Part shown: piece by piece, positions 42,428 through 47,649 of the stretch
How the letters are laid out: the number at the start of each line of letters is the position of its first letter
Numbering within the stretch: position 1 is the stretch's first letter
Assembly: GCA_027486555.1 (NCBI GenBank)
Contig: JAIXOX010000140.1
Span: 62,001 to 126,000, forward strand
DNA from: Comamonadaceae bacterium
GTDB lineage: Bacteria > Pseudomonadota > Gammaproteobacteria > Burkholderiales > Burkholderiaceae_C
Direction: 5' to 3'
Length of the DNA: 64,000 nt
Notes under the pieces: generated by a model
The model's database searches: none
Seen by the model: only the letters and a program-made list of their open reading frames with translations
What the model was told of the DNA's origin: nothing
Position numbers and translations under genes: made by a program

Positions 42428-42446
42428 AAAAGTGTCATGCACTTTT
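42428..42446. promoter_or_regulatory. Palindrome in the pntA-NUDIX intergenic region
   Basis: AAAAGTG-TCATG-CACTTTT is a perfect 7-5-7 inverted repeat in the 216-base AT-rich region between the divergent pntA and NUDIX genes. It could be an operator; no T-run makes it a terminator. Confidence 0.35.
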
Positions 42447-42502
42447 CCAATAAAAGACACGACATCGGTCAACCGGGCACACCACCCTTGATAATCCAGA
42501 AC

Positions 42503-42997
42503 ATGGACTCACGCTGGAAACCCAATGTCACCGTCGCCGCCATCATTGAAAAAGAAGGCCGCTATTTGTTGATCGAAGAACACACCCCAGAAGGCCTGCG
42601 CCTGAACAACCCCGCTGGGCATTTGGACCCCGGGGAGTCGCCAGCCGAGGCTTGTGCCCGAGAGACTTTGGAAGAGACGACACACCTTTTTAACCCCACA
42701 GCTTTAGTGGGTATTTACCTGTCCCGTTTTCAACGCCTCGCCACGGCAGAGGACGTGACCTACGTCCGAATGGCGTTTTGTGGTGAATTGGGTGAACTGC
42801 AAAAGGGTCATCAACTTGATGAAGGCATCGAACGCACCCTCTGGATGACACCCGAGGAAATCAGGGCCAGCGCATCCCGTCACCGAAGTCCTTTGGTTTT
42901 GCAATGCATTGAAGACCATCTGGCCGGGCAGCGTTACCCCCTCGAGGTCATTTACACCGACCCTGCAGTCAAGGGTTTACCGCATCTGAAGGCTTGA
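42503..42997 (+). CDS. NUDIX hydrolase (NudJ-like)
   Basis: Small pyrophosphohydrolase of 164 residues with the Nudix box GHLDPGESPAEACARETLEET at residues about 38-58. The final Gly of the consensus is Thr here (EETTH), as in some NudJ relatives. In E. coli and many proteobacteria nudJ lies directly upstream of mnmA; here mnmA is 4.7 kb downstream, beyond an antisense operon. ATG 42503 fits the family; the track start at 42437 adds a non-family N-terminus. Substrate not determined (nucleoside di/triphosphates, HMP-PP in NudJ). Confidence 0.85.
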   Translation: MDSRWKPNVTVAAIIEKEGRYLLIEEHTPEGLRLNNPAGHLDPGESPAEACARETLEETTHLFNPTALVGIYLSRFQRLATAEDVTYVRMAFCGELGELQKGHQLDEGIERTLWMTPEEIRASASRHRSPLVLQCIEDHLAGQRYPLEVIYTDPAVKGLPHLKA

Positions 42998-43037: not shown

Positions 43038-44480
43038 CTACTTAGGGGCAAAAACAGAAGCATTCCAGCCCAAATCCTGTGCCATGGACTGCGCCAAACG
43101 CTGGTAGCCAGGCACTGTGAAATGGATCAAATCCTTGGCCATCCAAGCTGGGTTTTGCTGGGCCCATCGGTAAGATCCGCCAGCCCCGCCCATGGCGCTG
43201 AACATGCTCCAGAAGTGGCACCCGTGGGCTTGCGCCACCTGCTTTTGAATGCGCCCAATTTCAGCGTGAACCCGGGTAAATTTAAGAAAATCTGGATATT
43301 TTGCTGGGACTGGTCTGGTGCCATGAACAGCGCCAGATCGGTTTTTCTGAGACCGCCGAACCAAAATACCCCGATCCCCTGGTGCCACCAACAAGCAGTT
43401 GGCCTGAGGAAAGAGTTGCCGCCAAGCAGCCACCGATGAACGCAAGGTCTGGCTGTAGGCTACTGCATCGAATGGCTGCACATTGCCTTCATTCGTGCCA
43501 AAGGCCATCACCACCACGTCGTAAGTTGAGGCTCCCCACCAAGGCGCCATGACCGTCGCTTGCACCTGACGCCAGCCGGCCACAGTGGCCCCCGGGTATC
43601 CAAACACATCGAGTTGCAATCGGATGTCCACGGGCAGTGGCAATTCGATGCCATTCAACCTGAACGGACCTTCAAGCACGCGCAGCTCAAGGGTGGACAA
43701 CACATCGTCGCCCACCAAATCCAGCACAGCTGGGCCTTCGCGGCCCTGCAAATCGATGCGTTGCTCTTCACCTGCGTCGACGCGAATGGCCAAACTGATC
43801 GGATCTCGGGTTTGCTGATACAACAAGCGCAACTGGGACTTGTCGGCTTGGGCCATGGCATTGCGAACGTCCAGCGACATCCAGGCATCCTTGCCCTGCG
43901 TCCACATATTGACCAAACCCGGCCCGGGCTCACTGGCGCCTGCGGGCACGGCATGCGCGGGCTCGTATTGCCACCCCGCTCCGACACAGCTTTTGCGCAA
44001 GGGCAACCGCACGCCAGGCCTGTTCATGCTGGCTGGCAAGAACCGGCTGCCCACAGCTTCAGGGGGCAACTGAGACAAACGCGCCCATTCCTGGCTCCAA
44101 AAAGCAGCCGCCAGATGGCTGTCGCCCCAAATCCCCACCCGCAATGGTTGGCCCGATTGGGCTTGCCACAAAGTGCGTTTTTGTGGGCGCATCTCAGCCA
44201 ATGGCGCGTTGGGCAAAACATCTTGAAACTGCCTTAACTGGGTTTGAACGTCCACGTCATCGGGCACTTCTTGGGGGTCCACCTCACGGGTTGTCTTGGC
44301 CCGAGGTGCAGTTGGCCGCTGACTGCATTGCAAGTCAGGCGCACCGCGGCGTGCCTGGACGGGCAAGATGGTTTGCTGCACATCGGCTCGCACCAAGGGC
44401 AGTGTTTGGGCTACCAAAACACCACTGAAAAAAAACAAAGCCACAGGGGCCAAGTAGCCCGAAACCCAAGATTTTTTCAT
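43038..44480 (-). CDS. SGNH/GDSL-type hydrolase or O-acyltransferase, exported
   Basis: Periplasmic or anchored protein of 480 residues. A signal/anchor (GYLAPVALFFFSGVLVA) is followed by a Pro-rich stretch and an SGNH fold: block I GIWGDSHLAAAF with nucleophile Ser near 120, block II Gly in FGYPGAT, block III FGTNEGN, and block V DLIHFTVPGY with Asp and His. A jelly-roll-like insertion separates blocks I and II, as in AlgX/AlgJ or PatB-type enzymes. The start overlaps the upstream DUF459 stop (ATGA). With the MBOAT protein two genes upstream, it probably transfers or removes acyl groups on an envelope glycan. Confidence 0.8.
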   Translation of the reverse strand: MKKSWVSGYLAPVALFFFSGVLVAQTLPLVRADVQQTILPVQARRGAPDLQCSQRPTAPRAKTTREVDPQEVPDDVDVQTQLRQFQDVLPNAPLAEMRPQKRTLWQAQSGQPLRVGIWGDSHLAAAFWSQEWARLSQLPPEAVGSRFLPASMNRPGVRLPLRKSCVGAGWQYEPAHAVPAGASEPGPGLVNMWTQGKDAWMSLDVRNAMAQADKSQLRLLYQQTRDPISLAIRVDAGEEQRIDLQGREGPAVLDLVGDDVLSTLELRVLEGPFRLNGIELPLPVDIRLQLDVFGYPGATVAGWRQVQATVMAPWWGASTYDVVVMAFGTNEGNVQPFDAVAYSQTLRSSVAAWRQLFPQANCLLVAPGDRGILVRRSQKNRSGAVHGTRPVPAKYPDFLKFTRVHAEIGRIQKQVAQAHGCHFWSMFSAMGGAGGSYRWAQQNPAWMAKDLIHFTVPGYQRLAQSMAQDLGWNASVFAPK

Positions 44481-45469
44481 GGTTGCGCTGCCTTTTGAAT
44501 GTGTTCAAGCAAGGCTTGTTTGACCAAGCGCAAGGCCGTGGGCGTCATGTGAATACCGTCTTCGGCCCGTAAATTCAGAGGCTGACCGTCTGCGCCCAGT
44601 TTGAATTTCTGAAATGGTTCGGACAACACGCCAATGAGGGGCTCAGTGGCCAGATAGTCGGTGCCCCAATTTTGAGCTCGGGCATGAAAAATGTGGTTTT
44701 GCAACACTGCGCCATCGCGTACCCGCCCCTCCCGCATGGAGGGCAAGCCCATCCAAATCACCCGGACTTGGCGCTCAACCGCTGCAGCCACCACCTCGTC
44801 TACCCGCAAGGCATAGTTCAGCGCCCAGCCCGGTGATGGAAACCCATGGCGCTGCCCATCGACCACCAAATCCCAAGGGTCATTGGGCCCCAAAAAAATC
44901 ACCACCAAGCTCAAGCTCTTGGCATCCATTTCTTCCACGATGCGTTGAGGCCAATCGAAATACCGCCGCACAGTCAAGCCGGTACTTTGACGACTCAGGT
45001 CATGCACTTCCCAATCGGGGTGCAAACGTGTCAGATCACGCATCAGCAAGGGGGCCACACCTTGCATCATCGAATCTCCGGCCAGCAAAATGCGCTGCAC
45101 ACCAGGCTTGAGTTTTTGCTGCGCCAAACTGGGCATGAACTGCCCTTTGGGCAAAGGTGGGGGCAAGTCTTGTAACTGGGGTGGTTGAGGCGTCCGAACC
45201 ACCACAGGTGTTTGTTCAAGCTCTTCATTGGAGGATGGCCACGCAAGGCGAAACAAAGGCCGCGAACCGCCAGCCCGCACCCGGTCATCCAACCATCGCG
45301 ACGGGGCAAACAAAGCGTTCGACAGGGCTTCAGGCAGCACAGCTTCCAAGCTGACGTGGTACCTCACGCCTAAATACCTTTCAAGCGAAGTGAGCCAGCA
45401 CAGGGTCACCATCAGAGCGACCGCAGGAAGCATCCAGCTCAATTGACGTGCAGACAAACGATGGGCCAT
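44477..45469 (-). CDS. DUF459 SGNH-hydrolase family protein
   Basis: Exported SGNH protein of 330 residues with an N-terminal membrane helix (LSWMLPAVALMVTLCWL), a Pro-rich linker and the DUF459 catalytic domain: GDSMMQGVAPLL (Ser), QSTGL (Gly), FLGPNDPWD (Asn) and EDGIHMTP (Asp, His). All four blocks are intact. The ATG lies one base after the MBOAT stop. DUF459 proteins often travel with MBOAT acyltransferases and may be the periplasmic transferase that receives the acyl group. Confidence 0.83.
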   Translation of the reverse strand: MAHRLSARQLSWMLPAVALMVTLCWLTSLERYLGVRYHVSLEAVLPEALSNALFAPSRWLDDRVRAGGSRPLFRLAWPSSNEELEQTPVVVRTPQPPQLQDLPPPLPKGQFMPSLAQQKLKPGVQRILLAGDSMMQGVAPLLMRDLTRLHPDWEVHDLSRQSTGLTVRRYFDWPQRIVEEMDAKSLSLVVIFLGPNDPWDLVVDGQRHGFPSPGWALNYALRVDEVVAAAVERQVRVIWMGLPSMREGRVRDGAVLQNHIFHARAQNWGTDYLATEPLIGVLSEPFQKFKLGADGQPLNLRAEDGIHMTPTALRLVKQALLEHIQKAAQP

Positions 45470-45470
45470 C

Positions 45471-46883
45471 TCAAAACCGGTAATAAATGAAATTAGGCAC
45501 CCCTTCGGGACCATAAAACAGCACCGCGCAAAGCAAAATGGTCAACACCATCACACCCCAACGAGGGCTCAACCGCTCCAAGTAAACGGTTGCCTTGCGC
45601 TCTAAATCAGCAGCCCATGGGCTAAGTCCCCCTACACACAGCGCGATCAACACCAAGCCCCAGGCCTGCGGAATGTCGTCTGCCCAAAAGCCTTTGGGGT
45701 TGACAAACAAACCCTGCAGCATTTGCAAGGCGTGAGACACCGAGTCGGCCCTGAAAAAGACCCAAGCCACACTGACAAACACAAAAGTCACCATTTGAGC
45801 GGCCCAACGAGGCCATACAGGCATGCCCAAGCGCTGTGCCCCGTTCACCACAATGACCCCTAAGCCGTGCAACAAGCCCCACACCACAAAGGTCCAACTG
45901 GCCCCATGCCACAAGCCACTGATGAGCATACCCAGCAGCACATTGAGCTGGGTGCGCGCAAAGCCACGGCGATTGCCGCCCAGGGGAATGTAGATGTAAT
46001 CGCGGATAAAGCTGGACAAAGACACATGCCAGCGGGACCAAAAATCTGAAAGATTGCGCGCCAGATAAGGCTGTCGAAAATTCACGGGCAGAGTGAAGCC
46101 CAACAACAAGGCCAGGCCAGTCACGATCGAGGTGTAGCCTGCAAAGTCCAGAAAAATCTGCAAGCTGTAAGCCAGCATGGCGGCCATCAAAGCCAGGCTG
46201 CTGAATTGTTCAGGAAATTTGTAAACCGGGTCAACCCATTGGGCCGACAAGCACGAGGCCAAGACCACTTTTTGCACCAAACCCAAAACGATGAGGTAAA
46301 GCGCCAGCCAAGACTGTTTAGGAAGGCCCACGCGAAGTTGCGGATCGCGTTCATCGAGTTGGGCAAAAAAATGCTCGGCCCGCAAAATGGGGCCCGCAAA
46401 CAAAGTAGGCCAAAAACTCAAAAACAGCAGCACATCTGCCCAAGAACGCGCCAAACCCGGCTGCCGACCGACCATGACCATATAGGTCACCGCTTGGAAA
46501 GTAAAAAAAGACACCCCCACAGGGGTCACCACATCCAGCACAGGCAGCAAGGCATCAAAACCCATGCCCTGCAACACTTTCTGAAAGGTCTCGCGCACAA
46601 ATTCATAGTATTTGAGCGAAAGCAAAAAAGACCCCGCCAGCCACAAACCCAACCATAAAGGGCGACGACTGTCCGGCACACTTTGCATGCGCCGCCCCAA
46701 AGCCCACATGGCGGTGCTGTAAACGAGTAAAACAAGGGCAAACTTGGGAACCCAAGTGGCGTACAGGCCGTAGCCCGTCAGAATGAGCAAACCCCGCTGC
46801 CAGCCTGGCCTGCTGGCCAATGCCCAATAAGCGGGTAAAAACAGCAGGCAAAAAAGTCCAAATTCCGGCGAAACAAAACTCAT
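45471..46883 (-). CDS. MBOAT family O-acyltransferase (AlgI/PatA-like)
   Basis: Polytopic inner-membrane protein of 470 residues with about 10-12 segments. The MBOAT catalytic His lies in LISGLWHGASWTFVVWG, and NFRQPYLARNLSDFWSRWHVSL is the characteristic block. Such proteins carry acyl (usually acetyl) groups across the membrane for alginate, cellulose or peptidoglycan O-acetylation. It follows the lytic transglycosylase by 10 bases and precedes DUF459 by one. The genome context does not include alginate or cellulose genes. Confidence 0.9.
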   Translation of the reverse strand: MSFVSPEFGLFCLLFLPAYWALASRPGWQRGLLILTGYGLYATWVPKFALVLLVYSTAMWALGRRMQSVPDSRRPLWLGLWLAGSFLLSLKYYEFVRETFQKVLQGMGFDALLPVLDVVTPVGVSFFTFQAVTYMVMVGRQPGLARSWADVLLFLSFWPTLFAGPILRAEHFFAQLDERDPQLRVGLPKQSWLALYLIVLGLVQKVVLASCLSAQWVDPVYKFPEQFSSLALMAAMLAYSLQIFLDFAGYTSIVTGLALLLGFTLPVNFRQPYLARNLSDFWSRWHVSLSSFIRDYIYIPLGGNRRGFARTQLNVLLGMLISGLWHGASWTFVVWGLLHGLGVIVVNGAQRLGMPVWPRWAAQMVTFVFVSVAWVFFRADSVSHALQMLQGLFVNPKGFWADDIPQAWGLVLIALCVGGLSPWAADLERKATVYLERLSPRWGVMVLTILLCAVLFYGPEGVPNFIYYRF

Positions 46884-46893
46884 GGACTCAAGC

Positions 46894-47622
46894 TCATTGA
46901 ATGGGCACGTTCACACCTGCAGCCACTTGGTCAAGGCGGGCCTGCTCGGCCAGGACTTTGGCCACGTAACCACCATCATCAGTGACAGCGTCGCCCCCCA
47001 AATAAAAGAGCAAACCATCCTCCAGAGAACCGCCCTTGAGTTTGATCGAATCGTAAAGAACAGCCACGCCCACGCGCAAATTCGTGATCGGGTCGAAAGC
47101 AGCCAACTTCCCCCCATAGGCTTCATAGCGCTTGACGTGAATCGCGGTCATCACCTGCATCAGGCCTTGAGCCCCGGCATGACTTTGTACATAAGGATGA
47201 AAGTTGGACTCGATGGCCATGACCGCCAAGATCAAATGGGGGGCTAATTTGTACCGTTTGGCCAAGACATGGGCCTCGGCCACCAAGGCCGCCAAGGGCT
47301 CGGGCGCAATTTTGTATTTTTGCCCCAGCCAAGTGGCCACGGCCGCTTGGGAGCGTGGAAGGTCTTTCAGATCAACCGCCGTGGCACGATCGGCCGTGTT
47401 TTGCGGCAACCAGGAAATCAGCACCTGGCGATCACGCAGCCAATTGAACAAGGCTTCCTCGGCCATGTGCAAGCCCTGAGGATGCCACCACAGCGCCAAC
47501 ACCACCGCAGCCGCACTCAAGCCCACCATGGCCAAACCACTGTGAGTGACAAGGAACAAGCCCTGCGCAATGTCGCGCAAAGCCGTTCGAATGGGGGGGC
47601 ACCAAGTGCAGTGGAGGGGCAT
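46894..47622 (-). CDS. Membrane-anchored lytic transglycosylase (SLT domain)
   Basis: Peptidoglycan-cleaving enzyme of 242 residues: an N-terminal membrane helix (SGLAMVGLSAAAVVLALWW, about 28-46) and an SLT lysozyme-like domain with catalytic Glu in MAIESNFHPYV, then GAQGLMQVM and NLRVGVAVLYD, near family 1 (Slt/MltC-like) enzymes. It is the first gene of the four-gene operon; TATAAT lies 21 bases before the ATG. Its position links the acylation genes to peptidoglycan. Confidence 0.87.
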   Translation of the reverse strand: MPLHCTWCPPIRTALRDIAQGLFLVTHSGLAMVGLSAAAVVLALWWHPQGLHMAEEALFNWLRDRQVLISWLPQNTADRATAVDLKDLPRSQAAVATWLGQKYKIAPEPLAALVAEAHVLAKRYKLAPHLILAVMAIESNFHPYVQSHAGAQGLMQVMTAIHVKRYEAYGGKLAAFDPITNLRVGVAVLYDSIKLKGGSLEDGLLFYLGGDAVTDDGGYVAKVLAEQARLDQVAAGVNVPIQ

Positions 47623-47643: not shown

Positions 47644-47649
47644 ATTATA
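47644..47649 (-). promoter_or_regulatory. -10 box candidate for the transglycosylase/MBOAT operon
   Basis: The minus strand reads TATAAT, a perfect -10 hexamer, 21 bases upstream of the transglycosylase ATG. A good -35 is not visible (GCTAAA at 17 bases). If used, the leader would be only about 12-16 bases, so initiation with little or no Shine-Dalgarno is implied. Confidence 0.4.

Follow-up and report, generated by a model that had tools for sequence, protein, structure and literature searches.

In the window, the 64,000-nucleotide stretch of Comamonadaceae DNA analysed here, four genes on the minus strand form an operon at 43038-47622, in which a lytic transglycosylase (LT) gene is followed by genes for an MBOAT protein, a DUF459 protein and a second SGNH protein. 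Successive genes are separated by 10 bases and 1 base and then overlap by 4 bases (ATGA), and all four proteins score above the Pfam cut-offs (SLT, MBOAT, DUF459 and Lipase_GDSL_2). The coordinates and domains bear out the layout and gaps described in the first-pass annotation of this DNA. The features are as follows.

42437..42997, plus strand: NUDIX hydrolase (Pfam NUDIX, 1e-14), a convergent conserved neighbour outside the operon
43038..44480, minus strand: Ape1, predicted SGNH O-acetylpeptidoglycan esterase (Pfam Lipase_GDSL_2, 44.9 bits; fold match)
44477..45469, minus strand: PatB, DUF459 SGNH protein (Pfam DUF459, 176.7 bits, 4.4e-52; start ATG at 45469)
45471..46883, minus strand: PatA, MBOAT O-acetyltransferase (Pfam MBOAT, 100.9 bits, 1.2e-28)
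46894..47622, minus strand: LT1, small lytic transglycosylase of SLT family 1 (Pfam SLT, 56.6 bits, 2.3e-15)
47644..47649, minus strand: TATAAT box, possible promoter by its sequence, 21 bases ahead of the LT start codon
47705..48880, plus strand: mnmA (Pfam tRNA_Me_trans, 3.9e-80), the divergent conserved neighbour of LT, outside the operon

The TATAAT hexamer had also been remarked on at the head of the operon. It is present and could possibly serve as a promoter, a role that gained no support from a promoter scan: no sigma-70-like pair was found at the box, and the region's count of such pairs is no higher than in shuffles.

The window LT is predicted from its sequence to be a membrane-anchored family-1 lytic transglycosylase. 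One N-terminal membrane helix (a helix spans 8-46 in the AlphaFold model) precedes a catalytic domain with Glu138 (IES...GAQGLMQ), and the protein has the SLT domain, catalytic Glu and GLMQ signature that define SLT family 1. Glu138, Ser139 and Gly153-Gln156 are invariant in an alignment of 32 relatives. Sequence matches are to MltC/Slt70, and the best PDB fold match of the model is P. aeruginosa Slt, at a modest E of 8.5e-4.

The MBOAT protein has the two features expected of an OAP PatA, a conserved His and a C-terminal FXYXXF acyl-shuttle hexapeptide, here FIYYRF with Tyr467 at the C-terminal end. His326 and Tyr467 are invariant among 16 PatA proteins, including those of Proteus, Providencia and Neisseriaceae, and the MBOAT core matches DltB structures (E 5e-33). 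On the PatA tree, the window-type proteins are a betaproteobacterial clade of their own, and the window's close relatives cluster with PatA of the Chromobacterium, Neisseriaceae, Proteus and Providencia OAP clusters. PatA is known to auto-acetylate the tyrosine of the hexapeptide, and patA and patB are together necessary and sufficient for acetyl transfer (PMC12148441).

The DUF459 protein is predicted to be the transferase PatB, a peptidoglycan O-acetyltransferase. A longer reading frame opens at 45514; residue numbers here refer to the 330-aa form, which has an N-terminal membrane anchor and the catalytic residues Ser133, Asn196, Asp304 and His307. The PatB structures 7trr, 7tjb and 8tlb, together with 8gr2, are matched over 200 residues at E 1e-31 to 1e-33, and the Ser, Asn and Asp-x-x-His blocks align with those of the window protein, as is required of an OAP PatB. 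Against the NCBIfam PatB equivalog model the protein scores 131 bits, below a 580-bit cut-off that suits close orthologues; the shortfall bears on whether it should be called PatB sensu stricto and leaves its place in the DUF459/PatB family unaffected.

The last SGNH protein is, on modelling, a predicted Ape1-type esterase. An extra module is inserted in its SGNH domain after the GDSH block, giving the fold expected of an OAP Ape1, and Ser121, Asn330, Asp450 and His453 are invariant among 33 proteins. PDB matches are to Ape1 of N. meningitidis (4k3u, E 2.7e-11) and C. jejuni (8gkd and 8gld), and the predicted structure has a pLDDT of 88.8.

The last three genes of the operon are a complete patA-patB-ape1 (OAP) cluster, in the gene order seen in Chromobacterium, Neisseriaceae and Proteus/Providencia, which is the order that characterizes OAP. 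This is an already described system, an operon known since 2005 (PMC1199599; PMC12148441), and the first-pass annotation was mistaken in supposing that such a composition had not been described. Its two functional proposals fared better: that the set acts on peptidoglycan is supported by the PatB structure matches, the Ape1 fold and the DUF459 family, and of the two SGNH proteins the structure and fold matches make the DUF459 protein the transferase PatB and the last one the esterase Ape1. The OAP clusters of Neisseria, Campylobacter and Proteus resemble the window in all three proteins, their catalytic residues, the FXYXXF motif and gene order, and differ in that the window has an LT gene 9-10 bases ahead of patA (PMC1199599, PMC12148441). 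What is new here is the LT gene ahead of the OAP cluster, and not a new system. No published description of an LT inside an OAP operon was found in a literature search that covered few subscription journals; the 2005 survey does record a cell-wall hydrolase near the cluster in Zymomonas mobilis (PMC1199599).

We sampled 60 genomes of the genus (freshwater Limnohabitans and relatives) for both elements. LT1 is present in 57 of the 60, lying head-to-head with mnmA in 56 of those 57, so relatives lacking the LT are ruled out as a pattern for the genus; in the family, 147 of 151 genomes likewise have a related LT. The OAP cluster is much less widespread (18/60). LT adjoins it in 17 of these 18 carriers; the remaining one, G171, has a contig that starts at patA. 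LT1 occurs in 18/18 OAP-positive versus 39/42 OAP-negative genomes (Fisher p 0.55), a presence independent of OAP, which rules out an LT specific to OAP; its retention in the 39 OAP-negative genomes means that the LT works without the cluster. For this reason the earlier picture of a self-contained four-gene module was overstated: the linkage to LT is real, but the LT is a genus-wide gene that persists in genomes lacking the OAP genes. G178 and other OAP-negative genomes have mnmA-LT-NUDIX-pntA, the window arrangement minus the cassette, and the empty site, with NUDIX directly after LT, is seen at four loci (L146, L117, L120 and L127). The state of OAP changes at least eight times on the LT tree, and a single clade of OAP-positive LTs is rejected (p-AU 3e-5). 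PatA branching in the genus mirrors LT branching when the trees are compared by eye, suggesting a single ancient arrival followed by many losses. OAP loss tracks smaller genomes in the genus: among genomes at about 90% completeness or more, the median size is 3.0 Mb for 25 OAP-negative versus 3.9 Mb for 12 OAP-positive genomes (Mann-Whitney p 4e-5, uncorrected for relatedness).

Where the two are adjacent, their spacing is tightly held. In every mnmA-type or L021-type locus for which upstream sequence is available, LT and patA are 10, 9 or -4 bases apart, and the exact 10-base spacing recurs in 17 other loci. This recurrence is more than chance. In L021, on a contig binned as Nitrosomonadales, the same four genes stand in the same order among neighbours other than mnmA. 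At two Rhodocyclaceae loci (L030 and L031), patA is preceded at 55 and 204 bases by a distant LT that shares 27-29% identity with that of the window; this LT may have been recruited independently or may be a replacement. All three of these loci have long branches on the LT tree. The two Rhodocyclaceae loci also have a second Ape1-like SGNH gene after ape1 (L030 8312-9610, L031 8302-9585), making a five-gene LT-patA-patB-ape1-SGNH run.

A PatB-type DUF459 protein is found in 9 of 399 genomes sampled from the wider order, and no LT was seen at the PatB-type loci outside the genus that were fetched from this sample. Nor was one found in the examined loci beside the OAP clusters of Gammaproteobacteria (Proteus/Providencia), Chromobacterium and Alcaligenaceae-type, near those of the Neisseriaceae-like loci examined, or at six further Rhodocyclaceae-side family loci with more distant PatA/PatB pairs. 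The first-pass annotation had held that its linkage would fail if the LT were absent from the operon in nearly all relatives. The outcome is mixed, with adjacency in 17 of the 18 carriers in the genus and absence from the OAP clusters of Neisseriaceae, Chromobacterium, Proteus/Providencia and most other Betaproteobacteria.

Several other arrangements were seen in passing. In other Comamonadaceae (L153 and L155), the related LT gene is ahead of what by eye is a glyA-like ORF and is not beside mnmA, which suggests that the LT changed position in the lineage of Limnohabitans. In Oxalobacteraceae MAGs (annotated loci L035 and L039), PatB (DUF459) and an Ape1-like protein are encoded directly behind a 637-641 aa acyltransferase-3 (AT3) protein with no PatA, a PatB-Ape layout also found in L040, L047 and L053; for PatB to be paired with an AT3 protein would be unusual. 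L035 continues with genes for a convergent small LT, a short SGNH protein and an SLT+LysM protein. One genome (G127, locus L143) encodes a 492-aa DUF459 protein and an MBOAT with neither an Ape1-like match nor an LT nearby, and was left out of the OAP cluster counts. On the PatA tree its MBOAT is a relative of those from five Rhodocyclaceae-side family loci, and the set possibly has another acylation target.

The same LT is also flanked by a second type of acylation cassette. A DHHW-family SGNH protein occurs in four of the 60 genus genomes, G171 (L145), G184 (L185), G179 (L186) and G187 (C65:3222-4334), in all four within about 5 kb of LT1. Between LT and NUDIX-pntA, G184 and G179 encode an MBOAT, the DHHW protein and an Ape1-like SGNH protein that matches the Ape profile at E about 1e-36; in G184 a glucosaminidase-domain gene adjoins the MBOAT. 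G171 has a similar MBOAT-DHHW-Ape1-like set convergent to LT. These DHHW-associated MBOATs are separate from both the window-type PatA and known OAP PatA on the PatA tree. On the LT tree, G171 stands apart from the sister rows G179, G184 and G187, so the DHHW placement represents about two events. Chance would hardly explain why a second cassette type occupies this slot, and an insertion hot spot by mnmA may be an alternative account of where the cassettes are placed.

Taken together, the operon is very probably a patA-patB-ape1 O-acetylation/de-O-acetylation operon whose transcription runs on from a resident LT gene. By analogy with the Neisseria and Campylobacter homologues, PatA would pass acetyl from cytoplasmic acetyl-CoA to Tyr467 of its C-terminal hexapeptide, and PatB would take it onto Ser133 and attach it at the MurNAc C-6 hydroxyl. 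The acetylated MurNAc would then block lysozyme and also LTs, which cannot form 1,6-anhydroMurNAc unless that hydroxyl is free; a block of LTs by O-acetylation is documented (PMC1199599). Ape1 would remove the acetyl at sites meant for cutting, and the membrane-anchored LT would cut at the sites so opened. LtgA and Ape1 of Neisseria bind one another, each raising the activity of its partner (PMC7083599), and in this light production of an LT together with Ape1 makes sense. We infer that LT and patA would be co-transcribed, and LT and Ape1 would cooperate, in the window organism. In the N. meningitidis pair, too, an LT works at one wall site with an O-acetylpeptidoglycan esterase (PMC7083599), but LtgA belongs to another LT type and is an outer-membrane lipoprotein, and the window LT is small, membrane-anchored and adjoins the OAP cluster.

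Whether the LT is functionally coupled to OAP seems to us evenly balanced. With a probability that we put only slightly short of even, the LT is a mere neighbour: a core LT fixed beside mnmA, behind which an OAP cassette was placed once and lost many times, with co-transcription incidental and no dedicated LT-Ape1 pairing. The constancy of LT1 by mnmA with or without OAP, the intact mnmA-LT-NUDIX order of OAP-negative genomes, the repeated changes of OAP state with rejection of one OAP-positive clade, and the mirrored PatA and LT branching (by eye) are all what this account would lead one to expect. It sits less easily with the four-gene block in the other context of L021, the distant LT ahead of patA in Rhodocyclaceae, the DHHW-type cassettes beside the same LT, and the constancy of the LT-patA gap (9-10 or -4 bases). 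More tentatively, we consider that the LT may be a working fourth member of OAP, a small inner-membrane LT made together with Ape1 so that de-acetylation and cutting would share one site. On this view, the stretch between LT and NUDIX in Limnohabitans would serve as a slot in which LT-matched wall-acylation cassettes of DUF459 or DHHW type are exchanged.

On the acetylated polymer there is far less room for doubt, and we hold the peptidoglycan O-acetylation reading with high confidence. MBOAT and SGNH pairs are known to acylate exopolysaccharides (AlgI/J/X, WssFGHI), and these share with the window set both that logic and a C-terminal shuttle motif. They use other SGNH families, however, and the identities of the DUF459 and Ape1 proteins led us to reject the alginate or cellulose reading. 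Acylation of an alginate- or cellulose-like exopolysaccharide in place of peptidoglycan is most improbable, given a transferase from what a review describes as a family of Gram-negative peptidoglycan O-acetyltransferases (PMC9487903), a third protein with the Ape1 fold, and a window MBOAT gene that is the sole one found in a 92%-complete genome. ALGX had no match in the four operon proteins at E up to 0.05, and no ALGX/AlgJ-type protein was found in the genome by a search that had no working positive control. It is just as improbable that the last SGNH protein works as another acetyltransferase and not as an esterase: both reactions run on SGNH folds and the DUF459 model matches it weakly (20.8 bits, below cut-off), but transfer needs only patA and patB, which suffice (PMC12148441), and its whole fold and inserted module are far closer to Ape1 esterases than to anything else, the best five PDB fold matches all being Ape1 (N. 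meningitidis and C. jejuni; E about 1e-22 to 2e-22, TMt 0.72-0.74) and the first non-Ape match coming at E 2e-9.

Two further systems share parts of this chemistry. OatA, the Gram-positive AT3-SGNH protein, makes the same product at MurNAc C-6 as the window set would, but with AT3 in place of MBOAT and as a single fused protein. DltB/DltX/DltD have the MBOAT core and tyrosine shuttle chemistry of PatA, and differ in using a carrier protein and a separate microprotein and in placing D-alanine onto teichoic acid.

How wall O-acetylation is kept in step with autolysins is important for both growth and resistance to lysozyme (reviewed in PMC6174289), and a physical link between LtgA and Ape1 is known from one pathogen. 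The sister genomes that keep the LT but are without the acetylation genes provide a natural plus/minus comparison for the dependence of an LT on the acetylation cycle.
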